45,516 nt of DNA from a virus, in the IMG/VR virus record IMGVR_UViG_3300045743_000849, positions 1 to 45,516 of that record; one strand, 5' to 3'. This document shows, in pieces, positions 1 to 45,516 of the stretch. Under the pieces are notes generated by a model, which saw nothing but the letters and a program-made list of their open reading frames with translations, made no database searches and was not told the DNA's origin. Numbering within the stretch: the stretch's first letter is position 1; every line of letters starts with the position of its first letter. A program made the position numbers and the translations under genes.

Positions 1-1242
1 TCAGCCGACCAGTTTGAGCGCCGGGGCCTTGGGCTGCTGGTAATCCTGGGGGATGAACTTGCCGTAGACCTTGAAGACCATCTGCACGTCGACGTGGCCG
101 AGCTGCTGGGCGACGTACCAAGGGTTCTGGCCGGCGGTCAGCAGGCTGCTGGCAAAAGTGTGCCGCATCTGGTACGGGTTCCGGTATCGCACGCCAGCGC
201 GTTTGCATAGCGGCTGCCACAGCGTCTTGCGGATCTGCGAATCTGTCTCCCAGCTCTGCCCGGTGCGAGGGTTGTGGAACACGTGCTCGCCGGCCAAGAA
301 TGAAAACTCTTTCTGGCTGGCCAGCGCGGCGAGGGCTTCTGCGCTCAGGTCGACGTCGCGCACGCCGGCTTCCGTCTTCGGCCCTTTCTCGGTCCCCGCG
401 ACCTGGTTGACATCGATGCGGACGGTGTTGCCGACCCAGTCGATCCGATTCCAGCGCAACGCGATCAGCTCGCCTGGCCGCAGGCCGGTAGCCAGGGCAA
501 ACTGGATCTGCGGCCGCTCGTCGCTGCGACAGTGCTTCAGCAGTTCGACGCGCTCGGCCTGGTCGAACGGATCGACCTCGTAGTCGCTGGCCTTGCTGGT
601 CTGCTTCAGCAGTTTGTTCAGGGCGATGCGATCGAAGGGGTTGAAGTCGATCAGCTCGTCGTTCAAAGCGTCTTCAAAGACGGAGCGCAACGGCGTCAGC
701 AAGTTCCGCGCGAACTTGGCGGTGACGCCCATGCCGCTGATCCAGTCGCGCAGCTTGCTGGGGGTCGCATCGCGCAGCGCGACCGTGTCCCATACTTTCA
801 TGCGCTCACTGTTGATCGCCTTGGCATATCCTTCAAGGGTGCTTGGCGACAGGGTCTGATTTTTGACCTGGTGCTCATAGACCTCAAGCTGCTTGTTGAG
901 CAGCTGGCGCAGCATGATGCGGCGGCCGCCAACATCAAACTGCTTGGCGCGTTCGCTGTCCGGGAAATAGTCCGGGTAGTGGAAGGTGCCCTCGGCGATA
1001 CGGCGCTGGATCTCGGCCCTGAGGCCGCTGGCGATATCGACCGACGTCTTGGTGATTGGGCGAGGGGGGAGCAACTCGCGGCACTCAACCCCCTTGAATG
1101 AAAACGCGAGCTGTATGCGCTGCTCGGTCTTGAAGGTGCGGATGCTTACGCCGCGAGGGCAGACGATCTCGCGCTTCGCGGGGCCTGTGCTCGCTGCTGC
1201 TGGACTGGGGCCTGACTCGGCGCCTCGCTGCTTTCCACCCAT
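1..1242 (-). CDS. int: Prophage integrase, tyrosine recombinase with DUF3596-type arm-binding N-terminus
   Basis: Site-specific recombinase that would integrate and excise the prophage. The N-terminus (about residues 20-75) resembles the DUF3596/Arm-DNA-binding family, followed by a SAM-like core-binding domain and a C-terminal catalytic domain. Catalytic landmarks visible are the Arg in ATGLRPGEL, the RHTFASSLL block (its upstream HxxR histidine is replaced by Tyr in YQMR, which is common in this subgroup), the His in QLGHVD and the Tyr in FKVYGKF. I chose the ATG at 1242 because AGAGGTG lies 6 bases upstream; an in-frame start at 1269 also exists. The gene is last in the leftward early operon and overlaps the excisionase-like gene by 97 bases in another frame. 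The stop codon is the first three bases of the window, so attL must lie outside it. Confidence 0.95.
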   Translation of the reverse strand: MGGKQRGAESGPSPAAASTGPAKREIVCPRGVSIRTFKTEQRIQLAFSFKGVECRELLPPRPITKTSVDIASGLRAEIQRRIAEGTFHYPDYFPDSERAKQFDVGGRRIMLRQLLNKQLEVYEHQVKNQTLSPSTLEGYAKAINSERMKVWDTVALRDATPSKLRDWISGMGVTAKFARNLLTPLRSVFEDALNDELIDFNPFDRIALNKLLKQTSKASDYEVDPFDQAERVELLKHCRSDERPQIQFALATGLRPGELIALRWNRIDWVGNTVRIDVNQVAGTEKGPKTEAGVRDVDLSAEALAALASQKEFSFLAGEHVFHNPRTGQSWETDSQIRKTLWQPLCKRAGVRYRNPYQMRHTFASSLLTAGQNPWYVAQQLGHVDVQMVFKVYGKFIPQDYQQPKAPALKLVG

Positions 1243-1424
1243 TTGTTCACCTCTTCGGGATTGATCCACAAATTGCCGTCTGGGCCAATCTTGCAGTGTA
1301 GGCCGTCAAGCCATTGCTGTTTGCGGCGCCTGGCGTGCACGGCGTCGGTAGTGTCGCCGCTGAGCTGGCAGTAGGCTGGCAGCTTGATCCAGCGCATGGG
1401 GCTTTGATAGATTTGAGTGCTCAT
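1146..1424 (-). CDS. xis: Excisionase-like small DNA-binding protein
   Basis: 92-residue basic protein directly upstream of, and overlapping, the integrase. The segment RWIKLPAYCQLSGDTTDAV followed by RRRKQQWLDG and DGNLWINPEEVNKWVE has the layout of excisionase-type winged-helix proteins: an HTH, a basic wing, then a short helix. The C-terminal 25 residues are Ala/Gln/Ser-rich and probably unstructured. Its start (ATG at 1424) overlaps the stop of the ASCH gene, with AAAGG 8 bases upstream, indicating translational coupling. Function is inferred from fold-like features and position next to int. Confidence 0.75.
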   Translation of the reverse strand: MSTQIYQSPMRWIKLPAYCQLSGDTTDAVHARRRKQQWLDGLHCKIGPDGNLWINPEEVNKWVESSEAPSQAPVQQQRAQAPRSARSSALAA

Positions 1425-2406: not shown

Positions 2407-2806
2407 GAGCAGCCCCTTCAATGCTTTTGGCCGGCAGGCCACTAGATAAGGCTTCCTTCACCCCCGCGACGGCGGCGGTTAATTCGTCGTCAGTTGCGCG
2501 ATCGGCATGGGGGACTTCGGGTTCGATGCGGTCGCAGACGTCGACCAGCGTTTGCGCAGCCACGCGGAGCGCTTCCCCCGCAGTGGCGGCGCCGGCGAGA
2601 GTGGCCGTTAGGTTCGCTACCGTCACGCGGAGGGCGTGAGTCTTGGCGTTCAGGGCGCAAGGCTTCACCAGGTCTTTCATCACCCGCTCGTCGTCGCCGC
2701 ACTCGCGGATGCACTCACACGTTGCTTCTTTCTTGGTTGCCCCCCCCGCCCCCCCGTGAGGGGCGATCCAGCCGAGGGAGATTTCAGTCATCGGCTGCGG
2801 GCTCAT
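2399..2806 (-). CDS. Hypothetical early protein with predicted helical core
   Basis: 135 residues, not recognised. The N-terminal third is Gly/Cys-containing (residues 15-40 with CECIRECGDDE), and the rest is Ala-rich and helical (LTATLAGAATAGEALRVAAQ). The codons for the Gly-Gly-Ala-Gly-Gly stretch fall on an almost pure C run at 2740-2756 (plus strand), a low-complexity tract prone to length change. The gene sits between ParB and the exonuclease with overlapping ends on both sides, which supports it as real. Confidence 0.6.
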   Translation of the reverse strand: MSPQPMTEISLGWIAPHGGAGGATKKEATCECIRECGDDERVMKDLVKPCALNAKTHALRVTVANLTATLAGAATAGEALRVAAQTLVDVCDRIEPEVPHADRATDDELTAAVAGVKEALSSGLPAKSIEGAAHA

Positions 2807-4737
2807 GCTGTCACCACAAAATCAGCCAAAGCCTTGCCTTGCTCCATGGCGACCTTGAGCCATTTGGGCTGCAGGCCACGGCCGCTCCATGTCTCGCCCG
2901 TGGCGGCGTTGCGGTACTTGAGGTTTGAAGCCCGCTTGGCGGTGGTGTTGGCCTGCTCGGCATGCGCTTGCACAAAGGCGGCAGTGGGGTCAGGCAGGCC
3001 GAGGCGGGCGGCTTCGTCGGCGCGGACCTGCGTGTAGGCGTCGTCGCCGGCTTGCTGGTCGAGCAGTATCAGCTCGTCGGTGATGCCCAGCTCGCAAGCC
3101 AAGGTGTAGGTGGGCGCATCGGGGTACTGGCTATCTTCCAGATCATCCCAGCGGGCTCGATCCGTCAGCTCGCACAGCACCAGCGTCTCGATCAGGATCT
3201 CGCCCAGCTCGCGGCCACTCAAATTGGCGAGGCGCTGCTGCAGGTCGCCGGTCAGCGTTGCACCGTTGCGCCACGCGTGGGTCAGCTCTGGCATGGCCCA
3301 TCCGCGTGCAGCGTAGAGCAGCTTGAACTCTTCGACCGGCGCGTCATCCATGCTTTTGGTGATGAGCAGCTGGACAGCGCGCAGCGGCAGCTCTGGCGCG
3401 GCCTTGAGCGCCTTGTGCAGCGCTAGGTGCGCGTACTTGCCGAAGAGCTCTATCGCGACGGACTCGGTCTGGTTGTTCAGCTCCTGCGGGGTGCGCGGCT
3501 TAAGGTTGGGCGCGGGCTCGGCCGGGCGCTTGGGCTGTGCGGGGGCTGCGGCCTGCGACTCACCTTCGCTGGTCTCTTGCTCTGCCGCTGGTTCAGGCGG
3601 GGGCGGTGTTACCTTGAGCAGGCCCTTGGCCTTGAGCACCTTGCGTACAACGTCCTGGTGCACGATGCTGACGATTTGGCCAGAGGGGTGGTCCAGCGTG
3701 ATCACGTCGCTGGTCTTGGCGCCGAAGATCTCGCGCAGCGTCTGTGTGCTGGTGCTCATCTCGCAGGCCAAGTTGAACCAGAAGTACCCGCTGGGCAGGT
3801 AGTTGCTGGTGATCATCAGCTTGCGGGCTGCTTCGCCGCTCAAGACTGTGTGGCCGGCCTCGCGAGCGGCGTCCAGCAGGCCGTCATGGTGCTGGCTGGA
3901 CTTGGCGTTGTAGCAGCTGCTGTCCTGGCACATGTCGCCGCTCTTGACGTCGTCAAACAGGTCAGGGTTGGCGCCGCTGCGTTTGGGGCAGGCGGCGCAA
4001 GGGCCGGCGACGGGGTAGCACGCGGTGATGTCAAACGGGGCCTTGGCCAGGCTGAGCATGTATTCCTTGGCCAAGTACTCGGCAGCGGCGCGGAAGCTGT
4101 AGAGCTCGCCGCCCCAGCCGGCGGCAATGTGGCGGGCGGCTTTGGCTTGCTGCTCTGCGTCGGGCATGCGGGCGATGAGACCGGCGATGGTGGCCTTAAA
4201 GGCCCCAGACAGGAAAAGTTCGCGCACTTCGGTACAGAGGTTGAGCAGGGCAAGTCGTCCGAAAATCCAGCGCCGACCCTTGCTCAATGTGGTCGCGACT
4301 TGCTCGGCGGTGTCGCCGGTATCGGCCATCAAGCGGCGGATGCCTTCAGCTTCTTCAAGCTCGTGCAGGCTTTCCCGGTCAATGTTTTCCTTTAGCTGGA
4401 TCTGCAAGGCCTGTCGATTGGTCAGCGGGCGTACTAGCGTCAGTACTGTGTCAAGGCCGGCGATGCTGCTGGCTCGCCAACGGCGCTCCCCAGCCACAAT
4501 TTCGTACGGTGGCTGGCCGTCTCCATCGGTGTGATCCGGGTTGACGCGAGCGAGGATTGGCTGAAACACGCCACCCAGCTCGCGGATGCCATCAGCCAAC
4601 TCATTGAGTTTGGCTGCGTCGAATTTTTGGCGCGGGTTGGTGGGACTGGGTTTGAGTAGGCCAAGCGGGATATGCAGGGCAGACTCTTGCTTGAGGGTTT
4701 GAGTCTGCGTGCTGATTGGTAGCGCTATGGTATCCAT
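2803..4737 (-). CDS. ParB/Spo0J-type DNA-binding protein fused to an H-NS-like C-terminal domain
   Basis: 644 residues, the largest protein of the left arm. Residues 20-110 form a ParB N-terminal domain with the GERRWRA box at 83-89, followed by ENIDRESLHELEEAEG and an HTH region (about 125-165, TAEQVATTLSKGRRWIFGR). The middle contains a Pro/Glu-rich linker (about 380-430) and helical sequence of unknown role. The last 45 residues contain KYRNAATGETWSGRG followed by QPKWL, the H-NS C-terminal DNA-binding signature. A partition role is unlikely because no ParA or parS is seen nearby; binding phage or host DNA, or nuclease/CTPase activity, is more plausible. Cys residues at about 245-275 (CAACPKR, MCQDSSCY) could bind metal. 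The start ATG at 4737 is 13 bases downstream of the preceding gene. Confidence 0.85.
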   Translation of the reverse strand: MDTIALPISTQTQTLKQESALHIPLGLLKPSPTNPRQKFDAAKLNELADGIRELGGVFQPILARVNPDHTDGDGQPPYEIVAGERRWRASSIAGLDTVLTLVRPLTNRQALQIQLKENIDRESLHELEEAEGIRRLMADTGDTAEQVATTLSKGRRWIFGRLALLNLCTEVRELFLSGAFKATIAGLIARMPDAEQQAKAARHIAAGWGGELYSFRAAAEYLAKEYMLSLAKAPFDITACYPVAGPCAACPKRSGANPDLFDDVKSGDMCQDSSCYNAKSSQHHDGLLDAAREAGHTVLSGEAARKLMITSNYLPSGYFWFNLACEMSTSTQTLREIFGAKTSDVITLDHPSGQIVSIVHQDVVRKVLKAKGLLKVTPPPPEPAAEQETSEGESQAAAPAQPKRPAEPAPNLKPRTPQELNNQTESVAIELFGKYAHLALHKALKAAPELPLRAVQLLITKSMDDAPVEEFKLLYAARGWAMPELTHAWRNGATLTGDLQQRLANLSGRELGEILIETLVLCELTDRARWDDLEDSQYPDAPTYTLACELGITDELILLDQQAGDDAYTQVRADEAARLGLPDPTAAFVQAHAEQANTTAKRASNLKYRNAATGETWSGRGLQPKWLKVAMEQGKALADFVVTA

Positions 4738-18560: not shown

Positions 18561-20057
18561 GTGAACTTTATTGACCGCGCGTTCGAGTTGCTGTCCCCCG
18601 CGTCAGCAGTCCGGCGTGAGCAAGCCCGCCTGCAGCTCAGCGTCATCCGCAAGTACGACGCCGCTACCACCGGCCGCCGCACGTCCGGCTGGCAAGCCGG
18701 TGGCGGCAGCGCCAACGCCGAGATCATCCAAGGCCTGGCCCTGGTGCGTAATCGCAGCCGCCAGATGGTTCGCGACAACGAGCACGCCAAGAAGGCAGTG
18801 CACACCCTCGCCACCAAGATCGTCGGCAGCACCGGCATCAACGTCATCCCTGAAGCCAAGGCCGAACGCAACCTCTGGGCGACCTGGTGCGCTGACCAAT
18901 GCGATGCCGATGGCCAACTCGACTTCGCAGGGCTCCAGCGCCTGGCTGCAATGACCTGGAAAGAATCTGGCGAATGCCTTATCCGCCGCCGTTGGCGTAA
19001 GGTTGAAGACGGCCTGGCCGTGCCCATGCAGATCCAGCTCCTGGAACCTGATCACCTCGACCACCTCAAGACCGGCATTGACGGTGCCACTGGCGACATC
19101 ATCATCATGGGCGTCCAGTTCGACGTCCTCGGGCGCCGCAAAGGTTACTGGTTATTCCCTGAGCACCCCGGCGAAGTGGCCATCATCCGCAAGAGCCTGC
19201 AAAGCAAGTTCGTGCCCGCCAGCGAAATCATCCACCTCTACCGTAAAGACCGCATCAGCCAGGTGCGCGGCATGCCCGAGCTAGCCGTCTCCATCATGCG
19301 TCTGCGTGACGTGGCCGGCTACGAGGAGGCCGAGCGGGTGCGCAAGAAGATCGAAGCCTGTTTCACGGCGTTCGTCACCACCGACAACCCCCGTATGTCC
19401 TTGGGTGACCTGACCAAAGAACAGGGCGGCACGGCCACAACTGGCGGCACCCGCACGATCGAGAAAATAAGCCCTGGTCTGATCAAGTACCTCACGCAAG
19501 GCGAGGGCGTCAGCTTCGGCACGCCCGCAGCCATGGGGGGCTATGGCGAGTACATCGCCACCCAAATGCACGCCATCGCAGCCGGTGCAGGCGTCAGCTA
19601 CCACCAGCTCACTGGCGACACCTCGCGCAGCAGCTACACCAGCCACCGCGCCGCCCTGCGCGAGTTTTACGACCTGATTGAGTGCGAGCAATGGCTCACC
19701 TTCATTCCTGGCTTCATCCGCCCGGTGCGCCGCTGGTGGCGCGAGGCCGCGCAGCTCAACGGTGTGCGTATCGGGACCAAGCCCGACCGCATAACCACGC
19801 CGCGCAAGGCCATGGTCGACCCGCTCAAAGACACGCTGGCGGACAAAGAAGAGATACGCGGCGGGCTGAAGAGCTGGAGCGAGGCCATTCGCGAACGCGG
19901 CATGGACCCCGAGACCGTACGGGCCGAGATCAAGAGCGAGCGCGACGCGTTCGCGCTGCTGCAGCTGATCTTTGACACCGATGCCACGGTCACCGATTTG
20001 AAGCTGTCGCCAACTGATGTGCTGGGGCTGGATGCCGGCGCAGCCCCTGCGAACTGA
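18561..20057 (+). CDS. Portal protein, lambda gpB family
   Basis: 498 residues. Typical features are the N-terminal FIDRAFELLSPASAVRREQA, NEHAKKAVHTLATKIVGSTG, LLEPDHLDHLKTG, FVPASEIIHLYRKDRISQVR and the SYHQLTGDTSRSSYTSHRAA segment shared by gpB portals. The C-terminal region (after about 460) is acidic. It forms the dodecameric channel for DNA. The stop is 8 bases before the cassette that separates it from its usual partner, the prohead protease. Confidence 0.95.
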   Translation: MNFIDRAFELLSPASAVRREQARLQLSVIRKYDAATTGRRTSGWQAGGGSANAEIIQGLALVRNRSRQMVRDNEHAKKAVHTLATKIVGSTGINVIPEAKAERNLWATWCADQCDADGQLDFAGLQRLAAMTWKESGECLIRRRWRKVEDGLAVPMQIQLLEPDHLDHLKTGIDGATGDIIIMGVQFDVLGRRKGYWLFPEHPGEVAIIRKSLQSKFVPASEIIHLYRKDRISQVRGMPELAVSIMRLRDVAGYEEAERVRKKIEACFTAFVTTDNPRMSLGDLTKEQGGTATTGGTRTIEKISPGLIKYLTQGEGVSFGTPAAMGGYGEYIATQMHAIAAGAGVSYHQLTGDTSRSSYTSHRAALREFYDLIECEQWLTFIPGFIRPVRRWWREAAQLNGVRIGTKPDRITTPRKAMVDPLKDTLADKEEIRGGLKSWSEAIRERGMDPETVRAEIKSERDAFALLQLIFDTDATVTDLKLSPTDVLGLDAGAAPAN

Positions 20058-20067
20058 AGGAACAAAA

Positions 20068-21588
20068 ATGTTAGTACCAAAACAAAGCGGCATCCGCATC
20101 ACCGCGACAGGAACGGAACCGGACGGTATGACAGCCGCCCAGTTTGCTCAAACTAAAGCCATGGTGTCAGCGGCTTGGAATGACACCATGGTCGGGCTGG
20201 GTGACTCGCTCACTGCCCGATCAAATGTGGCTAGCGGCGGCGCTCAAAACGCACAAGGAACGTCTTTCTTGGCCTGGGCGGCGGCTTTGATGGGCGCGGC
20301 ATTCACGTGGCTCAATGCCGGCATCTCAGGCAACACCACGGCGCAAATGCTGGCCCGGTACGCCACGGACGTTACGCCTCTTTCGGGTCGCTGGCTGCAC
20401 CTATTGGGTGGCGGCAATGATGTGTCAGCGGACGTTTCGGCCTCGGCCATCATCGCAAACCTGACTCAAATCATCGCGCTGGCCAAAGGGGAGGGCCGGC
20501 AGATCGTGCTCGGTACGATTTACCCATTCACCAGTCACACGACGACTGCCCGCCGGGCGGCAATTGCCGGCGTCAATGCTTGGATTCGTGCTCAAGGCGC
20601 GGCCGGAACGGTCATCGTTGCGGACTACTACTCTGCGATGGTTGATCAGGCTGGCGCCATCCGTTCCGGCTTGCTTGTCTCCGATGCAATCCACCCATCG
20701 ATTCAGGGCGCGTCTGTGATGGGGCGCGCGCTTGCATCGGCGCTGACAGCCCGAGTTGGGCCGCGTACTCACATCTTGAGCGCATCGCAGCTTGACGCTG
20801 ATAACGCTTGCCAAAACGGCTGCATGTCCGGGGCGAACGCCAGCGGGGCAAATGGCTGGTCTGTGGCTGGCGGCGTCACCGGAACTGGACCGCGTGGCTG
20901 GTCTGTCACTAGCACTGGCGCAATCGTGGCCGTTGCCAGCAAACAAGCGCGCACCGGTAACGCATCGGCTGCTGATTTTGCCCGCGTGGCGATCACGACC
21001 TCGGGCGTCGATGACAGCTATGTCCGGTATGAGCGAGCCGTCAATTACCGGGTCTGGTCATCGAGCGGCACGGCAAACACCGTGCGCCGGTTCTATGTGC
21101 CTGCGACTGGCGCTCAATACGATGTTCTGGTTGACGGAAGCTTGTCAGCGACTGACCTGACGGCAACATGGCCTACCGACATTGGTGCAACTTTCACGGA
21201 CGGCACGGCCACGCTGATGTGCGTGCAGCCTATCGTTCCCGGCTCGGTGCTGCGCATGGCGGTGGAGTGCAATATCAGCGGCGTCAGCGTCGGCCAAGTG
21301 CACCCCGAAGTCATGGTGTTTTGCCGCAACACAGCGGCGGCTACGGTCTGCAACACGCTGGGACTTGCGACTGCCGGTGTGGCGGTCGATGCCGCTGCGG
21401 CGCTGGTCAGTGAGTCGGGTAGCGGCCTAGTGATCGAAACCAATGATGTGACCGTGCCGGCGACCTTCGACTTGGCCGGTGCAACTTCTGCCGCTGGCCC
21501 TTCCATTGTTGTTCGGCTCAATCTCTACGTTCGTAACAGCGCATTGGCGACCATTGACTGGGGCCGCGCAACTGTGCGGGTCCGCTAA
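20068..21588 (+). CDS. SGNH/GDSL hydrolase with C-terminal beta-rich domain
   Basis: 506 residues. The SGNH blocks are in order: GLGDSLTA with nucleophile S47, NAGISGNTT, LLGGGNDVSA with N117, and SDAIHPS with D206/H209, giving a full catalytic set. The second half (about 260-506) is Thr/Ala/Val-rich and probably a beta-sandwich or carbohydrate-binding module. Such enzymes are esterases or deacetylases and in phages often act on surface polysaccharide. I chose the ATG at 20068 (GAAGGAAC upstream). It lies between portal and protease, an unusual position, so it is most likely a moron or a virion-associated enzyme. No signal peptide is obvious. Confidence 0.88.
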   Translation: MLVPKQSGIRITATGTEPDGMTAAQFAQTKAMVSAAWNDTMVGLGDSLTARSNVASGGAQNAQGTSFLAWAAALMGAAFTWLNAGISGNTTAQMLARYATDVTPLSGRWLHLLGGGNDVSADVSASAIIANLTQIIALAKGEGRQIVLGTIYPFTSHTTTARRAAIAGVNAWIRAQGAAGTVIVADYYSAMVDQAGAIRSGLLVSDAIHPSIQGASVMGRALASALTARVGPRTHILSASQLDADNACQNGCMSGANASGANGWSVAGGVTGTGPRGWSVTSTGAIVAVASKQARTGNASAADFARVAITTSGVDDSYVRYERAVNYRVWSSSGTANTVRRFYVPATGAQYDVLVDGSLSATDLTATWPTDIGATFTDGTATLMCVQPIVPGSVLRMAVECNISGVSVGQVHPEVMVFCRNTAAATVCNTLGLATAGVAVDAAAALVSESGSGLVIETNDVTVPATFDLAGATSAAGPSIVVRLNLYVRNSALATIDWGRATVRVR

Positions 21589-21617
21589 CTTCCAAGCCCC
21601 TCCGCGAGGACCGAACC

Positions 21618-21824
21618 ATGAGCGACCTATTGCGAAAGATTGAAGCCGTCCGCGTCAGGGCTGCCGAAGACGCCGTCATATCAAGCCTTCCTGCTCGCCT
21701 AGTCGAGAACATGCGCAAGGCGGATGCGGCCTTCAAGTCGAGCGGTGGCTGTCCTGGATGCGGCAGCCAAGTCATCGGCGTGCATTACGGCGACTGCCCA
21801 TCGATTCGCAATGACCTTTACTGA
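21618..21824 (+). CDS. Small Cys-containing hypothetical protein
   Basis: 68 residues, not recognised. An N-terminal helix (LLRKIEAVRVRAAEDAVISS) precedes CPGCGSQVIGVHYGDCPS, three cysteines and one histidine that could bind one zinc. Second gene of the cassette, two bases before the next one. Confidence 0.6.
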   Translation: MSDLLRKIEAVRVRAAEDAVISSLPARLVENMRKADAAFKSSGGCPGCGSQVIGVHYGDCPSIRNDLY

Positions 21825-21826
21825 TC

Positions 21827-22207
21827 ATGAGTGAGCTGCAATACACACCCGGCGATTGGTTCCAGGCTGCGACCGTTGACGATCTGGAGCGCTTCTTTGT
21901 GTCGCGCCTTCCTGCGATCCGCGAAGCGGCCCAGGCCCACGGTTACGCCATCGGCTTGCACGGCTCTTGCCGGCGCGACCTGGACCTGATCGCGGCGCCT
22001 TGGCGCGACGGAGCATCGGACGCCGACACCCTGGCTCATGCTGTCGCCCAGGCGGCTTGCGGTATTGATCGGGCCGGCGCCTACGGCTGGGAAAGCAAGC
22101 CCGCTGGGCGCATCGCCACAAGCATCCCGATCTGCTGGCCCGGCTGGCATGGTCAAGACGGCGCCGGTCACATCGACCTGTCGGTGATGCCGACAACCCA
22201 AATCTAA
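21827..22207 (+). CDS. Nucleotidyltransferase-like small protein
   Basis: 126 residues. GLHGSCRRDLDLIAAPW resembles the hG[GS]x(n)DhD core of minimal nucleotidyltransferases: GS followed by DLDL gives two acids. GWHGQDGAGHIDLSVMP near the end provides a third possible acidic residue. Related small phage proteins exist but activity is unproven. Translation is coupled to the preceding gene (2-base gap). Confidence 0.55.
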   Translation: MSELQYTPGDWFQAATVDDLERFFVSRLPAIREAAQAHGYAIGLHGSCRRDLDLIAAPWRDGASDADTLAHAVAQAACGIDRAGAYGWESKPAGRIATSIPICWPGWHGQDGAGHIDLSVMPTTQI

Positions 22208-22231
22208 GCCCCTGCCGGTATCCATAAAACC

Positions 22232-23263
22232 ATGAGCCTGACCACCACGGAGCTTGAAGAGCTGATCCGCCTCGCGCTGTCAGCGCTTCGTGGCCAGGCC
22301 GTTGCGCCGGCTGGTGCTGTTGCTGCGCTCGCTGCGGCTCAGCCTGAGCCAGTGCAGGCCGGGCAGACGTTGGGCGAGTGGCTGGTGACGTACCGGGCGA
22401 TCATCAGTGAGCGCGGGTACAAGGTGTCGACGATCAAAAATCGCGAAGCATCGTTGAAGCACATTGAGGCGATTCTTGGTGGCCGGCCGCTGAAGTTGAT
22501 CAAGCCTCACGAGATCGCGAGCCAGCTCAAGCAGTTCAGCCCGCACACGGCGGGCCGACTGCTCGGGGAGCTGCGCGACGTCTATGTCGAAGCGATCGCC
22601 AATGGCAGTTCAGAGTCCAGCCCGGCCGCGCATGTCAAAGCTCCGCAGGTGCATGGGCTGCGCAAGCGGCTGACGTTGGAGACTTGGCGGTCCATGTTGA
22701 CGCTGTCAAAAGCTGGGCCGCAAAAGTGGGTTCCAGCCATGCTGCTGTTGGCCCTTGCAACTGGGCAGCGGCGGGGTGACCTGGCCAAGATGCGCTTCGA
22801 TGATGTGGTCGGGGGTTGTTTGAGGGTTGAGCAGCAGAAGAAGGCGCGAAAGCCGATTGGGGCCCGAGTCGCGATTCCGCTAACTTTGAAATTGAACGCA
22901 AGTGGAATGACACTTGGTGATGTGGTTGAGTACTGCCGTGGTATCGGCGAGCCCGGCCCTACGCTGCTGCGCAAGTCAGGCGGCGGCCCAATCGAGATGT
23001 CCAGCTTATCGGCACGCTTTCACGAACACATCCTGTCCGTGGCTGGGCCTGACGCATACAAGCAGTACGAATGGCCCAGCTTGCATGAGATCCGCAGTTT
23101 GTCTGCCAGGACATATATCGCCGAGGGCATGACGCCCGTTCAGGTTCAGACACTGCTCGGGCACAAACATTTCGAGATGACAGATCTCTATCTTGATGAC
23201 CGAGGCCTGACCGATGGCGTTTGGAAGACGGTGGATTCAAACGTTACGGCGCAGCCCTCGTAA
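22232..23263 (+). CDS. Internal tyrosine recombinase within the late region
   Basis: 343 residues. A short N-terminal coil is followed by a core-binding domain (LGEWLVTYRAIISERGYK) and a catalytic domain with the full set: R180 in ATGQRRGDL, a Lys-rich beta turn (QQKKARKP), H285xxR288 in LHEIRSL, H311 in LLGHKH and Y320 in TDLYLDD. All residues needed for activity are present, so it should be functional. It is not a second copy of either terminal integrase. It ends 20 bases before a terminator, and it may move or invert the cassette. Confidence 0.9.
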   Translation: MSLTTTELEELIRLALSALRGQAVAPAGAVAALAAAQPEPVQAGQTLGEWLVTYRAIISERGYKVSTIKNREASLKHIEAILGGRPLKLIKPHEIASQLKQFSPHTAGRLLGELRDVYVEAIANGSSESSPAAHVKAPQVHGLRKRLTLETWRSMLTLSKAGPQKWVPAMLLLALATGQRRGDLAKMRFDDVVGGCLRVEQQKKARKPIGARVAIPLTLKLNASGMTLGDVVEYCRGIGEPGPTLLRKSGGGPIEMSSLSARFHEHILSVAGPDAYKQYEWPSLHEIRSLSARTYIAEGMTPVQVQTLLGHKHFEMTDLYLDDRGLTDGVWKTVDSNVTAQPS

Positions 23264-23283
23264 GTCGCACTGACACAGCCCAT

Positions 23284-23307
23284 AGCCCGCCCCGTGCGGG
23301 CTTTCTT
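23284..23307 (+). terminator. Terminator closing the cassette
   Basis: AGCCCGC/GCGGGCT (23284-23302) with a CCCGT loop followed by TTCTT. It lies between the integrase and the capsid gene inside what should be one late transcript, so either antitermination carries polymerase through or it marks the cassette boundary. Confidence 0.8.
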
Positions 23308-23325: not shown

Positions 23326-25455
23326 ATGCCCCAAGCATCAACCCCTGTGGTCGAACACCGCAGCATGCCCCTGCAGACCCGTAGCGTGCCTGTCGTCTCC
23401 GTCAACGAGCAGGCCCGCACCTTTGAGTTCGTCTGGACGTCCGGCGCGCGCGTTAAGCGTTTCGACTGGAACACCTGGTCGTACTACCTCGAAGAGCTTT
23501 CGCTCGACCCTGCACACGTTCGTCTCGATCGCCTCAAAAGCGGCGCGCCGTTGCTCAACTCGCACCAGCAGTGGGATCTGTCCAGCGTGCTCGGTGTGCA
23601 TGAAGACGCCTGGCTGGATGGGGCTGAAGGCAGGGCCGTGGCTCGCTTCTCCGATCGCGACGATGAGGTCAACGCCTACTGGCGGGACGTCGTCAACAAG
23701 ATCATCCGCAACACCAGCGTCGGCTACATCGTCCACCGCTACATGAAGCTTGACCCCGAGGTCGAGGGCGGCCTGCCAATCTGGCAAGCGATCGACTGGG
23801 AGCCCTGCGAGAACTCGCTCGTTCCCATCGGCGCCGACCCGCTTGCCGGCGTGCGCACGCTCGGTGCGGGCGATCGCCCTGACACCGAGCAGCTGGGCCG
23901 TCAGGCCGCGCAGCTCGTCGGCGGTCGCAGCTTCCCCTGCGAGTTTGTCACCCGCGCGCTGCCCGCGCCAGGTGCATCCGAAGTTTCCCCCAACCCAGCA
24001 GCAGCCGCTGTTGTTCCACCCACTCCACAGGAGCGTTCCATGCCTCAAGCAAATCAAGACCCAGCGGCTACACCCGTCGCTGCCCCTGCCGCCACTCCGG
24101 TGTCGGCCCCCGCTGCTCGCAGCGAAGCCGACATCCTCGCCGGTGAACGCGAGCGTCAAAACCAGATTCGCGGCGCCGTCGCCGCATTCCGTCGCACTGC
24201 GCACGGCGATCTGGTGACAGATGCCGATGTGACCGGCATGCTCGAGCGCGGCCTCACGCTCGACCAAGCGCGCTCTGAGATGTTCGCCCGCCTGGAGACC
24301 GGCAGCAACAACACCGGCCCCACCCGCAGCGCGGCCGGCCTGCGTACCGAGCAAGACGAGCAAGAGCAGCGCCGCATCGACATGGGCGCGGCTGTTGCCC
24401 ACCGTGCCAATCCAAACGCCAACGCGCTGCCTGAAACCGCCCGCCGCTTCCGGGGCATGACGCTGTTCGAGCTGGCCCGCCGCAGCCTCGAACTGCAAGG
24501 CCAGAACACCGAAGGCCTGGGCCGCAATGAGATCGTCAGCCTCGCCATGGGCAACTCCGACGCCTACGGTTTCCGCTCCCTGCACGGCACCAGTGACTTC
24601 TCGATCGCGCTGGCCAGCACCGTCAACCGCACTTTGCGCCAAAGCTACCAAAGTGCCCCGCAGACCTTCAAGCAGTGGGCCCGCCGTGGCACGCTGAGCG
24701 ACTTCCGCGCCGCGACCCGCGTGGCTGTGGCCGGCAACTTGACGCTGGAGAAGGTCAACGAATTCGGCGAGTTCAAGCGCGGCAAGATGGTTGACTCGGG
24801 CGAAACCATCCAGCTCGGCACTTACGGCAAGGTGGTCGGCGTCACCCGCCAAGCGGTTATCAATGATGACCTCGACTTCCTCTCCCGCCTGCCGGCCATG
24901 TACGGCCGCGCAGCCGCTGACTTCGAGTCGGACATGGTCTATGCCATCTTGAAGAACAACGCCGCGATGAGCGACACCGTCGCGCTGTTCCACGCCACCC
25001 ACGGCAATCTGGGCACGGCCGGCGTCATCGGCGAGGTCACACTCAACGAAGCCCGCAAGGCGATGCGTCTGCAAAAAGACCCATCCGGCAACGGCGCGCC
25101 GCTCAACCTGGTGGCCAAGTACGTGATCGTCGGCGCTACTCGCGAGACCGAAGCGCAGAAGAACTTCCAGGCCGTCGTCATCGCCACGAAGAGCGCCGAC
25201 ACCAACGTCTTCAACAACGCGTATGAAGTCATCGTCGAGCCCCGCCTCGATGCCAGCAACCCGCTGGAATGGTTCATGGCCGCCGATCCGGCACAGATCG
25301 ACACCGTCGAGTACTCCTACCTCGACGGCGACGAAGGTCTCTACACCGAGCAGCGCATGGGCTTCGATGTCGACGGTATCGAAGTCAAGGCCCGCTTGGA
25401 CTTCGCAACCAAGGCGATTGACCATCGCGGCCTGTTCAAGAACCCTGGCGTCTAA
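23326..25455 (+). CDS. Prohead protease / major capsid protein fusion
   Basis: 709 residues. About 1-215 is an HK97/U35-type prohead protease (KRFDWNTWSYYLEELSLDPA, GAPLLNSHQQWDLSSVLGVH, NTSVGYIVHRYM, WEPCENSLVPIGADP). An Ala/Pro linker (235-275) leads into a Mu/HK97-type major capsid domain (after about 380: QSYQSAPQTFKQWARRGTL, FKRGKMVDSGETIQLGTYG, VTRQAVINDDLDFLSRLPAM). The start at 23326 has GGAG upstream. An internal ATG (24040, codon 239) with AGGAG 6-7 bases before it could give a free scaffold-capsid product. Fusions of this type are known in proteobacterial prophages. Confidence 0.92.
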   Translation: MPQASTPVVEHRSMPLQTRSVPVVSVNEQARTFEFVWTSGARVKRFDWNTWSYYLEELSLDPAHVRLDRLKSGAPLLNSHQQWDLSSVLGVHEDAWLDGAEGRAVARFSDRDDEVNAYWRDVVNKIIRNTSVGYIVHRYMKLDPEVEGGLPIWQAIDWEPCENSLVPIGADPLAGVRTLGAGDRPDTEQLGRQAAQLVGGRSFPCEFVTRALPAPGASEVSPNPAAAAVVPPTPQERSMPQANQDPAATPVAAPAATPVSAPAARSEADILAGERERQNQIRGAVAAFRRTAHGDLVTDADVTGMLERGLTLDQARSEMFARLETGSNNTGPTRSAAGLRTEQDEQEQRRIDMGAAVAHRANPNANALPETARRFRGMTLFELARRSLELQGQNTEGLGRNEIVSLAMGNSDAYGFRSLHGTSDFSIALASTVNRTLRQSYQSAPQTFKQWARRGTLSDFRAATRVAVAGNLTLEKVNEFGEFKRGKMVDSGETIQLGTYGKVVGVTRQAVINDDLDFLSRLPAMYGRAAADFESDMVYAILKNNAAMSDTVALFHATHGNLGTAGVIGEVTLNEARKAMRLQKDPSGNGAPLNLVAKYVIVGATRETEAQKNFQAVVIATKSADTNVFNNAYEVIVEPRLDASNPLEWFMAADPAQIDTVEYSYLDGDEGLYTEQRMGFDVDGIEVKARLDFATKAIDHRGLFKNPGV
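24031..24042 (+). promoter_or_regulatory. Internal ribosome-binding site and start in the capsid fusion
   Basis: GGAGCGTTCCATG-type spacing (AGGAG then ATG at 24040), in frame with the fusion at its linker. The first residues after it (MPQANQDPAA) resemble the true N-terminus (MPQASTPVVE), consistent with fusion of two genes that keep the second start. Confidence 0.6.
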
Positions 25456-40247: not shown

Positions 40248-41036
40248 ATGGCAACACCCATCATTCCTTGGCTGGGCGGCAAACGCCGGCTCGCCGATCA
40301 GCTCATCCCGCGCTTCCCACCGCACAAATGCTACGTCGAGGTCTTCGCGGGCGGTGCGGCTCTCTACTTTCTGCGGCCGCAGGCCGAAGTTGAGGTCATC
40401 AACGATGTGAACGGCGACGTGGTCAACCTCTACCGCGTCGTCAAGCACCACCTTGAGGAGTTCGTGCGGCAGTTCAAATGGGCCTTGTCTAGTCGCGACA
40501 TGTTCAAGTGGTTGCAAGAGACCCGCGTAGAAACGTTGACCGATCTGCAGCGTGCCGCTCGCTTTTTTTACCTTCAGCACCACTGCTTTGGCGGCAAGGT
40601 GCAAGGGCAGACCTGGGGCACGGCCACTACGGCCCCTCCGATCAATCTGCTGCGCATCGAAGAGCAACTCAGCGCCGCCCACTTGCGCCTGGCCAGCACT
40701 TACATCGAGAGACTGGATTGGCAAGAGTGCATGCGCCGCTATGACCGGGCGCACAGCTTCTTTTACTTGGACCCGCCGTACTGGGAGACCGAAGGCTACG
40801 GCGTGGAATTCCCGTTTGACCAGTACGTGGCCATGGCCGAGGTGATGCGCAAGCTGCAGGGCAAAGCCATGCTCAGCATCAACGACCATCCTGCGATCCG
40901 CGAGTGCTTCACCGGCTTCCACATGGAGTCGCTTGACATCAGCTACAGCGTGGGTGGTGGGGGCAATGCGGCGGCGCGCAAGGAGCTGGTGATCTGGAGC
41001 TGGGACCAGGCGGCTGAGCCGGCGGGCTTGTTTTGA
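40248..41036 (+). CDS. DNA adenine methyltransferase (Dam/D12 class)
   Basis: 262 residues. GGKRRLADQL, EVFAGGAA (F33-G36) and DPPY (175-178) are the D12-class N6-adenine methyltransferase motifs. It has no partner endonuclease next to it. Likely protects phage DNA from host restriction or regulates timing. It is well separated from the lysis genes (165 bases), and its end is 138 bases from the ParB-like gene. Confidence 0.9.
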   Translation: MATPIIPWLGGKRRLADQLIPRFPPHKCYVEVFAGGAALYFLRPQAEVEVINDVNGDVVNLYRVVKHHLEEFVRQFKWALSSRDMFKWLQETRVETLTDLQRAARFFYLQHHCFGGKVQGQTWGTATTAPPINLLRIEEQLSAAHLRLASTYIERLDWQECMRRYDRAHSFFYLDPPYWETEGYGVEFPFDQYVAMAEVMRKLQGKAMLSINDHPAIRECFTGFHMESLDISYSVGGGGNAAARKELVIWSWDQAAEPAGLF

Positions 41037-42506: not shown

Positions 42507-42569
42507 CGTAGCGCTGGCCAAGACCGTCGAACTGCGCTATCGTTCGGCCGGTTTTATCTGAATTTGCCC

Positions 42570-43487
42570 ATGCCCGTAACTGATTCCCCGCTTCGCTACC
42601 CTGGTGGCAAGAGCCAACTCACGCCGTTTGTTGTGGAGTTGTTGCGCACCAATGAATTGTTCGACTGCACTTACGTGGAGCCGTTCGCCGGCGGTGCCGG
42701 CATTGCGTGGACCCTGTTGCTTTCTGGGTATGTGAGCGAGGTGTGGATCAATGACTTCGATCCGGCGATCTTTGCGTTCTGGCACGCGGTGCTGAACGAG
42801 ACCGATGCGCTTTGCGAACGGATCGAGCGAATGCCGGTCAACATTGAAGAATGGCATCGTCAGCGTGCAGTTCAGGCACAGTCGGCCCCCTCGCTGCTAG
42901 ACCTTGGATATTCAACATTTTTCCTGAACCGGACCAATCGTTCAGGGATTCTCAAGGGCGGGGTCATCGGCGGTCTTCGCCAAGATGGCAACTATTTGGT
43001 TGATTGCCGCTTTAATAAGCGCGATCTCATCGCAAAGATCCGACGCATCGCCTTGTATCGGGATCAGGTAACCCTTACCAGACTCGACGCGGAGCAATTC
43101 ATACGCCGCAAGTTCAAGTCGTTGTCGGCACATGCACTCGTGAACGTGGACCCGCCCTACTACCGGCGAGGGCCAGAGCTGTATTGCAGCTTTTACAAAC
43201 ATGATGATCACGCAACGCTTGCGGCTGCTGTGCGAGGGATCAAGCAACCCTGGATGTTGACTTACGACGACACACCAGAGATCCGAGCGATGTACGGCGG
43301 CCTGCCGGCGCATAGCAAGGAATTACTTTACTCGGCTCAGGTTAAGCGCGCTGCCGTGGAGTTGCTGGTTTTGTCGCCAGCGCTTCAGTGGCCGACACAA
43401 CCTGAACAGCGCGTGCGGCGAACGGCTTCGTTGAAGGCGGCTGAGCCGGCGGGGCTGTTTGCCGCTAGTGAACAGGTTGTCATCTAA
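42570..43487 (+). CDS. Second Dam-like adenine methyltransferase
   Basis: 306 residues. RYPGGKSQLTPFVVELLR, EPFAGGAGIAW (F39-G42) and VDPPYYRRG (D194) give the full D12-class signature. Sequence differs clearly from the methyltransferase at 40248, so this is not a duplication. The ATG at 42570 was preferred over TTG at 42564. With the ParB-like gene it forms a possible two-gene accessory unit. Confidence 0.88.
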   Translation: MPVTDSPLRYPGGKSQLTPFVVELLRTNELFDCTYVEPFAGGAGIAWTLLLSGYVSEVWINDFDPAIFAFWHAVLNETDALCERIERMPVNIEEWHRQRAVQAQSAPSLLDLGYSTFFLNRTNRSGILKGGVIGGLRQDGNYLVDCRFNKRDLIAKIRRIALYRDQVTLTRLDAEQFIRRKFKSLSAHALVNVDPPYYRRGPELYCSFYKHDDHATLAAAVRGIKQPWMLTYDDTPEIRAMYGGLPAHSKELLYSAQVKRAAVELLVLSPALQWPTQPEQRVRRTASLKAAEPAGLFAASEQVVI

Positions 43488-44232: not shown

Positions 44233-45516
44233 ATGGCAAACGACAAACTGAGCGACATGCAATTGCGCAAGGCGAAGCCTGGTGAAAAGCCCATAAAGCT
44301 GGCGGATGGGGGCGGGCTTTATCTCGAAGTGCAACCCTCTGGGTCCAAATATTGGCGTTTGAAATACCGCATCGCCGGCGTCGAAAAGCGGCTGAGCTTG
44401 GGGGTCTATCCGGCGATTGGCCTGAAGGAAGCCAGGAGCAAGGCCGAAGACGCGCGCAAGCTGGTTCGGGATGGCACGGACCCGAGTGAGCATCGACAGA
44501 CCCTGAAGGCAGAAATCCTGAACAAGCGTGAGGTCGATCGACTGGCCGACGAGGGTTTGCCTCCGTTGGGGTCTTTTGAAAATGTTGCCAGAGACTGGCT
44601 CAAGACCGTTCATGAGGTGAAAGTCAGCCCTGGCCACGCGCAGCGAACGCAGATCCGGCTGGAGCAAGACGCCTTCCCATGGATTGGCAGGCGGCCGATA
44701 GGCGAGATTGAGGCGCCCGAGCTATTGTTGATGCTGCGCCGGATAGAAAGTCGCGGCGCTATCGAAACAGCCCATCGGGTCAAGGACGCCTGCGGCCAAG
44801 TCTTCCGGTATGGCGTAGCGACCGGCGCTTGCCAGCGTAACCCGGCGGCAGATCTGCGTGATGCGATGCGGCCAGTGCAGACGCGCCATCATGCGGCAAT
44901 CACCGACCCCGTCCTGGTTAGCAAGCTTTTGTGCGATATCCGAGCCTACCAAGGCCATCCGGTGACTCGCACCGCCTTGGAGTTGTCTGCGCTGCTCTTG
45001 CTTCGGCCGGGAGAATTGCGCAATATGGAATGGGCTTGGGTTGATCTCCCTGCTGGCATGGTGACACTCCCACCCGAAGTGATGAAACGCAAGAAGGCAG
45101 ACAAGGCAGACGGTCCGCCACATCTGGTGCCGCTGGCATCGCAGGCCGCTGATTTACTGTGTGAATTGCAGCGCCTTACCGGCGGAGGTCGCTATGTGTT
45201 TCCGGCTCTGACGACCAGTCAGCGCTGCATGAGCGAGAACACCGTGCGCAGTGCATTGCGGCGCTTAGGCTACGGCAATGACGACATGACGGCGCATGGA
45301 TTCAGGGCAACGGCCAGAACAATGATCGCCGAACGTTTGAGTATTGAGCCTCAGGTCATTGAAGCGCAGTTGGCGCATGCCGTTCCAGACGCGCTTGGGC
45401 GGGCCTATAACCGCACGCAGTACCTAGAGCAGCGCAAAACCATGATGCAGGCTTGGGGCAATTATCTGGATCAACTCTGGGCTGGCGCGCAAGCAGGAAA
45501 TCTGAGGGTTGTTTGA
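44233..45516 (+). CDS. int: P4-type integrase with DUF4102 N-terminal arm-binding domain
   Basis: 427 residues. An N-terminal DUF4102-like domain (LADGGGLYLEVQPSGSKYWR, KRLSLGVYPAIGLKEARSKA) is followed by a core-binding domain and a catalytic domain with R in LRPGELRNMEW, HGFR in MTAHGFRATA, H in QLAHAVPD and Y in RAYNRTQYLE. This class (CP4-57, P4 relatives) inserts in tRNA or tmRNA 3' ends and lies next to the att site reading away from it, exactly as here. It likely belongs to a second element extending to the right of the window. Confidence 0.93.
   Translation: MANDKLSDMQLRKAKPGEKPIKLADGGGLYLEVQPSGSKYWRLKYRIAGVEKRLSLGVYPAIGLKEARSKAEDARKLVRDGTDPSEHRQTLKAEILNKREVDRLADEGLPPLGSFENVARDWLKTVHEVKVSPGHAQRTQIRLEQDAFPWIGRRPIGEIEAPELLLMLRRIESRGAIETAHRVKDACGQVFRYGVATGACQRNPAADLRDAMRPVQTRHHAAITDPVLVSKLLCDIRAYQGHPVTRTALELSALLLLRPGELRNMEWAWVDLPAGMVTLPPEVMKRKKADKADGPPHLVPLASQAADLLCELQRLTGGGRYVFPALTTSQRCMSENTVRSALRRLGYGNDDMTAHGFRATARTMIAERLSIEPQVIEAQLAHAVPDALGRAYNRTQYLEQRKTMMQAWGNYLDQLWAGAQAGNLRVV

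Follow-up and report, generated by a model that had tools for sequence, protein, structure and literature searches.

Phage structural proteins are mosaic, and the clean joining of enzyme domains to unrelated anchors has mostly been ascribed to rare illegitimate or homologous events; short homologous boundary sequences have been proposed for lambdoid phages. Inverted sites around a C-terminal module are found in the R64 shufflon, which relies on Rci, and in the invertible tail-fibre segments of phages Mu and P1, which use serine recombinases. Integrons and integrase-less attC clusters have been reported in phages (PMC9892861), and modular phage receptor-binding proteins carry SGNH or depolymerase domains (e.g., PMC13123978, in whose main text neither recombination nor a recombinase appears). 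A search of the open-access PMC literature returned papers on phage integrons and SGNH receptor-binding proteins, and nothing that corresponds to the sites or to the arrangement described below.

The window examined in this study (the whole 45,516-nucleotide stretch of viral DNA) carries a block of four genes and a terminator-like hairpin between its portal gene and its protease-capsid gene (Table 1), confirming the gene order given in an initial annotation of this DNA. Because portal and capsid genes adjoin in relatives (Bordetella phage PBb001, Rhodobacter phage RcKemmy and viral contigs L249-L254), as that annotation had assumed, the insertion between them is real. The annotation had also allowed for an ancient block carried by all close relatives at this place; in relatives, instead, the junction is empty or is occupied by a single 87-aa gene or by other genes. 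Its view of the block as a mobile cargo unit survives in part: there is an exchangeable unit, but it is not the four-gene block, and mobility of the whole block was rejected since relatives have parts of the block in common rather than the block itself. The edges must therefore be redrawn, as the module begins at a site, L, inside the SGNH gene and ends at a second site, R, after the stop codon. No direct repeats or target duplication were seen by eye around the whole block, as first reported, but the relevant repeats are inverted and lie inside it. The name nucleotidyltransferase proposed for the 126-aa ORF is not supported, as this ORF has no Pfam match and its PHROG assignment is its sole annotation; a 38% identical relative lies directly behind the R site of contig L149.

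Table 1. Genes, sites and other features of the portal-capsid region (window coordinates).
Feature	Position	Strand	Basis or remarks
Portal gene	18561..20057	+	Phage_portal_2, Pfam E 4e-99; left neighbour, conserved backbone
SGNH/GDSL fusion gene	20068..21588	+	Lipase_GDSL_2, E 9e-23, residues 44-215
Exchangeable module L...R (SGNH passenger)	20163..21609	+	Anatomy as in 71 dereplicated L-R pairs
L site GGTGTCAGCGGCTTGGA	20163..20179	+	In frame (V-S-A-A-W); 2 mismatches to consensus GGTGTCAGGGGNTGGGA
R-type site TTCCAAGCCCCTCCGCGAGG	21590..21609	-	Directly after SGNH stop codon; core match; right half of CTCCGCGAGG type
Cys-rich 68-aa ORF, small cargo between two R sites	21618..21824	+	64% identical relative in small-gene array of phage contig L004
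126-aa ORF, small cargo	21827..22207	+	phrog_35913 (function unknown)
R site TCTAAGCCCCTGCCGGT	22203..22219	-	Overlaps 126-aa ORF stop codon; 12 nt before recombinase
Tyrosine recombinase, lambda-Int-like, without arm-binding domain	22232..23263	+	Phage_integrase, E 3e-13
Terminator-like hairpin	23284..23302	+	Sequence (stem-loop and T-tract)
Protease-capsid fusion gene	23326..25455	+	Phage_capsid_4; phrog_4523 'major head and protease protein'; right neighbour, conserved backbone

The block exemplifies a more widespread system with a common plan, in which a gene of the structural operon consists of a phage-specific leader, an in-frame L site and a passenger, with an inverted R site following the module's last stop codon. 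In the window, the fusion gene comprises a leader of about 32 codons, presumed to be a virion anchor, followed by L and the SGNH/GDSL passenger domain; homology to the passengers of other phages sets in near the L site, for the most part at residues 19-44, and the small genes and the recombinase lie behind successive R sites. The proposal that the cargo acts on surface polysaccharide agrees with the SGNH passenger here and with the passengers elsewhere, which are mostly polysaccharide-active enzymes (among 66 passengers, 19 SGNH, 7 polysaccharide deacetylases and 3 GH5, plus other glycoside hydrolase and lyase families).

The L consensus was derived from 89 dereplicated L sites, while the R consensus, TCCCANCCCCTGCCGGT, sits at the stop codon in the opposite orientation to L. 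Both contain a 12-bp core, CAGGGGNTGGGA, but the bases adjoining the core differ (GGTGT in L versus ACCGG in R). R sites occur in two types (CTGCCGGT and CTCCGCGAGG), and the right half of the R-type site behind the SGNH gene recurs in contigs L023, L159, L170, L185, L198 and L113. With up to one mismatch, the core CAGGGGCTTGGA has 6 matches in the window (0.31 expected), 3 of which are the L and R sites. Since the window sites, each tested singly within the window, are not significant, the case rests on related loci. There, an inverted R core was located no more than 4.5 kb downstream of 40 of the 80 L sites that the L pattern identified, and this single class out of four possible position and orientation classes held 43 of 48 core matches (binomial p ~5e-21). 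In addition, the start of the R site falls between -4 and +5 nt relative to a stop codon in 64 of 84 cases, and successive small accessory genes form tandem arrays in which each has its own R-type site (L012, L123, L018 and others). L is conserved as DNA: at loci not chosen by the L pattern, 24 of 26 VSG[AGD]G motifs are encoded by GTGTCAGGGG even though TCA makes up 6% of serine codons, a codon use that rejects conservation merely for the protein sequence.

The viral contigs contained 71 distinct dereplicated L-R pairs, and in all of them the reading frame starts upstream and passes through L into the passenger, with a median of 429 open codons downstream. The same pairs bear on whether the segment inverts and switches the C-terminus of the protein, as in a shufflon or the Mu G segment. 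The arrangement is reminiscent of the R64 shufflon, with inverted sites, one in a coding region and one past a stop codon, around the C-terminal module of a surface-exposed protein and with a recombinase gene (here a tyrosine recombinase) adjoining. In contrast to the R64, Mu and P1 systems, however, the opposite strand has no additional coding module (reading inward from R, a median of 25 codons is open), none of the 71 pairs was found inverted, L and R have different bases beside the 12-bp core, and modules are common to unrelated phages. A shufflon or phase switch was thus rejected and inversion is largely refuted, making it an extremely improbable account; of the earlier suggestion that the recombinase might exchange or switch its cargo, exchange is plausible while switching is unsupported.

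Complete L-to-R modules have been exchanged for one another among phages, and the junctions fall at L and R. One module of 1,376 bp occurs with 100% identity in four or more phages, with at least four different, unrelated flanks on each side, and another of 1,453 bp is 99% identical between unrelated flanks. Phages L035 and L036 are the same outside L-R and different inside, and in L108 and L131 one module is replaced by another at the same place. The junctions are resolved to the whole conserved site, so that the crossover is not placed inside L or R, and no second phage was seen carrying the window's own module. Some module and flank combinations could be metagenome assembly chimeras because an identical module acts as a repeat; however, an assembly artefact is hard to fit, as a full account, with L035/L036 or with modules that are 74-84% identical between unrelated flanks (L125/L221 and L195/L216). 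Inverted ends and an identical module in several phages are also what would be expected if L and R were the terminal inverted repeats of a non-autonomous transposon mobilized by a transposase in trans. We consider this very unlikely, given that all insertions continue the reading frame of a leader and that L035/L036 and L108/L131 show one module substituted for another at a single position.

The window recombinase is assigned by Pfam PF00589 and has, like lambda integrase, core-binding and catalytic domains. Lambda Int (PDB 1z1b) matched at a profile E-value of 4e-59, and lambda Int structures ranked top in the fold search. Residues R180, K203, H285, R288, H311 and Y320, which we take to be catalytic by comparison with lambda Int, are invariant in an alignment of 17 relatives, bearing out the claim of a full catalytic set. 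Unlike in lambda integrase, the arm-binding domain is replaced by about 45 unrelated residues, which vary among the 17 relatives, and the profile match begins only at residue 63. Two other integrase genes are located at the ends of the window phage.

Loci of close relatives of the recombinase (at least 53% identity) contained L-R pairs in 18 of 40 cases compared to 1 of 37 other loci (p ~1e-5), and whole records in 10 of 18 compared to 1 of 21, although the loci counted in these comparisons are not all independent phages. An R-like site was present at 30 of the 40 loci, in many cases immediately preceding the recombinase gene. The recombinase and the sites are found together even in genomes that have them far apart, as in record L003, which has an L-R pair at 2.4-4.6 kb and the recombinase with an adjacent R near 28 kb. 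This co-occurrence suggests that the window recombinase catalyzes the exchange and is likely the swapping machine. Among 21 long records chosen by their sites, only one encodes the recombinase (a copy cut off by the contig end), and 9 have no detectable tyrosine recombinase; since most site-bearing phages do not carry it, it must act in trans, or another agent must be involved. Isolated phages yielded no close relative of the recombinase (best ~35% identity), and among 401 genomes of one bacterial family L was found in 3 and the recombinase in 7, a result uninformative on the association.

The rarity of the recombinase bears on two further explanations. The first is that L and R are short homologous boundary sequences that let general phage recombination (Red/RecT-type) exchange modules, with the recombinase as a passenger gene. 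It draws on the L-R phages that lack a recombinase, on module junctions at short identical stretches and on the lambdoid precedent, but we still judge it unlikely: homologous exchange has no need of an inverted 12-bp core common to L and R, flanks beyond the sites are ~50% identical (the random level), leaving roughly 17-24 bp of homology, and sites and recombinase co-occur even when unlinked in the genome. The second, which appears quite improbable, holds that the recombinase is a selfish gene that inserts itself at R, while another enzyme recognizing the same sites exchanges the modules. The gene indeed has sharp boundaries, with 83-87% DNA identity between phages whose flanks are unrelated, is often situated directly behind an R site and is rare among site-bearing phages; however, no R site was regularly found after it (by eye), and phages with the recombinase have L-R pairs elsewhere in the genome as well.

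Compared to integrons, the system is similar in having a tyrosine recombinase beside arrays of small genes that each end in a conserved site abutting the stop codon, and in having clusters that lack an integrase. It differs in that the recombinase is lambda-Int-like rather than IntI-type, the sites span ~17-20 bp and show no evident attC-type consensus, the array precedes the recombinase and reads in the same direction, and a separate in-frame L yields fusion proteins. GTTRRRY boxes are absent from the site consensus, which is conserved over ~17 bp (by consensus inspection only; attC sites are long imperfect palindromes). Membership among integrons was rejected on the absence of an IntI-type integrase: no NCBIfam integrase or Xer equivalog reached its cut-off, XerC/XerD/XerA-type scores being weak and far below it, and in the fold search the integron integrase 2a3v came far behind lambda Int. 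Laboratory recombinase-mediated cassette exchange provides a closer parallel, as a cassette flanked by two inverted sites that are not identical is exchanged in its entirety; here, however, the system is natural, L is protein-coding, and catalysis is proposed from co-occurrence. The receptor-binding proteins of PMC13123978 likewise are phage structural proteins whose SGNH and glycan-degrading domains can be swapped, whereas the modules described here are bounded by defined DNA sites.

Natural recombinase-mediated cassette exchange of phage enzyme modules is thus the explanation that we regard as probable. The core would serve as a binding arm for the tyrosine recombinase beside the array, and LxL plus RxR recombination between co-infecting phages, or with a prophage, would swap the module, while the differing bases beside the core would block LxR inversion. 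RxR recombination at array sites may likewise gain or lose small genes, the recombinase is assumed often to act in trans, and the leader would hold the enzyme on the virion, where it could modify host surface glycans. We lean somewhat towards a broader statement, that several phage lineages share a natural site-specific platform in which a coding L and a post-stop R, of opposite orientation and different specificity, allow a dedicated tyrosine recombinase, often in trans, to plug surface-glycan enzymes onto unrelated virion proteins, and further R-type sites of distinct specificity provide small accessory genes with slots in a set order.

In dozens of unrelated phages, one and the same pair of DNA sites delimits passengers from many enzyme families (SGNH, polysaccharide deacetylase and several glycoside hydrolase or lyase families), and whether one recombinase moves these modules is now a directly testable question. 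If it does, the system would provide an orthogonal two-site cassette-exchange tool and a sequence tag for the discovery of new glycan-active enzymes, and it would account for the rapid spread of host-surface enzymes among phages.

The initial annotation held that four genes and a terminator separate the portal gene from the protease/capsid gene, and this order was confirmed: an SGNH/GDSL gene, two small ORFs, the tyrosine recombinase and a terminator-like hairpin lie between the portal gene and the protease-capsid fusion gene. Its premise that portal and capsid are normally neighbors also held, as the two adjoin directly in distant relatives. The junction is a variable spot, because gene content there differs among the closest relatives found, with three other genes in L242 (84% portal identity), an unrelated gene bearing an L-like site in L245 (73%), and a single 87-aa gene in L247 (64%). 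Two other integrase genes are found at the ends of the record; therefore, the recombinase of the block is not the only one in this phage.

Features of the 45,516-base window record
Feature	Position	Strand	Site sequence	Remark
Integrase	1-1269	-		stops exactly at record border
ParB-like protein	2803-4737			left arm
Portal	18561-20057			left neighbor of block
L	20163-20179		GGTGTCAGCGGCTTGGA	2 mismatches to consensus
R1	21590-21609		CTCCGCGAGG type
R2	22203-22219		CTGCCGGT type	2 mismatches to consensus
Tyrosine recombinase	22232-23263
Protease-capsid fusion	23326-25455			right neighbor of block
DNA methyltransferase	40248-41036			right arm
DNA methyltransferase	42564-43487			right arm
Integrase	44233-45516	+		stops exactly at record border

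Phage contigs that are otherwise unrelated carry relatives of the recombinase (45-76% identity) at varied operon positions. A variant of TGATTCCCATCCCCTGCCGGT lies directly 5' of the recombinase gene, and the stop codons of the genes before it often coincide with one as well. When all viral contigs were searched with this pattern, many had a match (site R) right behind the stop codon of a large structural-operon gene, and many such genes carried GGTGTCAGGGGNTGGGA (site L) near the end of an N-terminal leader, encoding V-S-G-x-G in frame. The L core, CAGGGGNTGGGA, is the reverse complement of the R core, while the core-adjacent bases are GGTGT in L versus ACCGG in R and the outer arm of L is partly symmetric, CCC(T/C). 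A near-invariant 17-bp stretch stands out in the logo of each site type (89 L and 78 R sites), where conservation inside the pattern is overstated since the sites were gathered by pattern. R abuts the stop codon in 64 of 84 cases. L is conserved as DNA beyond the needs of the protein, because GTGTCAGGGG encodes 24 of 26 VSG[AGD]G motifs in loci chosen without the L pattern, despite TCA representing 6% of serine codons. Genes 3' of the recombinase at two loci (L019:7729-8913 and L024:11142-12784) finish in another repeated motif, TTCCCATGGATGGAACTGAAGT-like.

The L-pattern search yielded 80 usable sites, 40 of which had an inverted R core at most 4.5 kb downstream; core matches in the inverted-downstream class numbered 43 of 48. 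L was in frame in all 71 dereplicated L-R pairs, with a median passenger ORF of 429 codons. An inversion switch is ruled out because the long coding module lies on the passenger strand only, with no reverse-strand counterpart in these pairs (median 25 codons). In the window, the module is the SGNH domain, R1 and R2 flank both small ORFs, and the recombinase follows R2. These sites are less perfect than most others and singly lack chance-corrected significance; jointly the three cores exceed expectation, and their position and orientation agree with the system. The two small ORFs have relatives between R sites in other phages.

Comparison of modules, from L through R, with their flanks showed that modules are exchanged with junctions at the sites. 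An identical 1,376-bp module occurs in L035/L138, L109, L143 and L113/L140 at a flank identity of about 0.5, and L041 and L191, whose flanks are unrelated, share a 1,453-bp module at 99% identity. Conversely, L035 and L036 are 99-100% identical on either side and differ solely between L and R, identity ending behind GGTGTCAGGGG and returning at TGATTCCCAT; L108 and L131 repeat this in a different type of phage. Some combinations of the identical module could be metagenome chimeras, but chimeras would not yield modules 74-84% identical within unrelated flanks (L125/L221, L195/L216). Right of the module in L113, two R-type sites (CTGCCGGT, then CTCCGCGAGG) stand nearly back to back, resembling an empty slot.

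The sites are associated with the subfamily of the window recombinase. Among loci picked solely by protein similarity and split at 53% identity to this recombinase, R-like sites were found at 30/40 loci at or above the threshold versus 5/37 below it, and L-R pairs at 18/40 versus 1/37. Across whole records, pairs occurred in 10/18 with close recombinases versus 1/21 with others. Both comparisons count loci as independent, which is not wholly so given that some contigs are near duplicates. The L003 record has its pair at 2.4-4.6 kb, whereas the recombinase and the R site beside it are near 28 kb; that sites and recombinase occur together even when unlinked speaks against mere hitch-hiking. The reverse direction is weak: only 1 of 21 long records picked by sites encodes the recombinase, so action in trans or another agent is required, and this rarity is where the model is weakest. 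The match to lambda Int spans residue 63 to the end of the recombinase, the arm-binding domain is missing, and AlphaFold predicts the structure with moderate confidence (mean pLDDT 79.6; low near the tyrosine segment). Isolated phage records contained no relative above ~35% identity. A homologue at L236 (genome G192) has one internal TAG stop and is probably a decaying copy.

The 66 passenger proteins included 19 Lipase_GDSL_2, seven polysaccharide deacetylase and three GH5 matches, with single matches to GH43, GH32, GH10, GH28, GH39, GH130, polysaccharide lyase and beta-helix families. The leaders are highly diverse and, judging from gene position and published phage SGNH receptor-binding proteins (PMC13123978), may serve as virion anchors for the enzyme. 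Among the products of small genes flanked by R sites are DNA methylases, an HNH protein, an acyl-carrier-like protein and an Acb2/Tad1-hairpin match. The aligned set of 38 small array genes also had crAss001_48 matches; together with the hairpin, methylase and HNH matches, these may represent anti-defense cargo. In three arrays (L009:3880-5935, L018:3865-5935, L004:232-2916), R-type right halves are similarly ordered (TCACAGGG, GCCGGTCGCAC, CATTGCCGCAC, ..., CTGCCGAC) in spite of differing genes, as though each slot carried an address.

No earlier description of the L-R system was found in the open-access PMC literature, although one may exist elsewhere. Integrons and shufflons are the nearest known systems, yet for each one tested defining feature fails here; integrase-less attC clusters are similar in that site-bearing phage records mostly lack the recombinase. 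In behavior, the system most resembles recombinase-mediated cassette exchange as practiced in the laboratory. The recombinase would catalyze module exchange, presumably in trans and at site types that may be orthogonal to one another, and the system may represent a natural cassette exchange of enzyme modules between phages.
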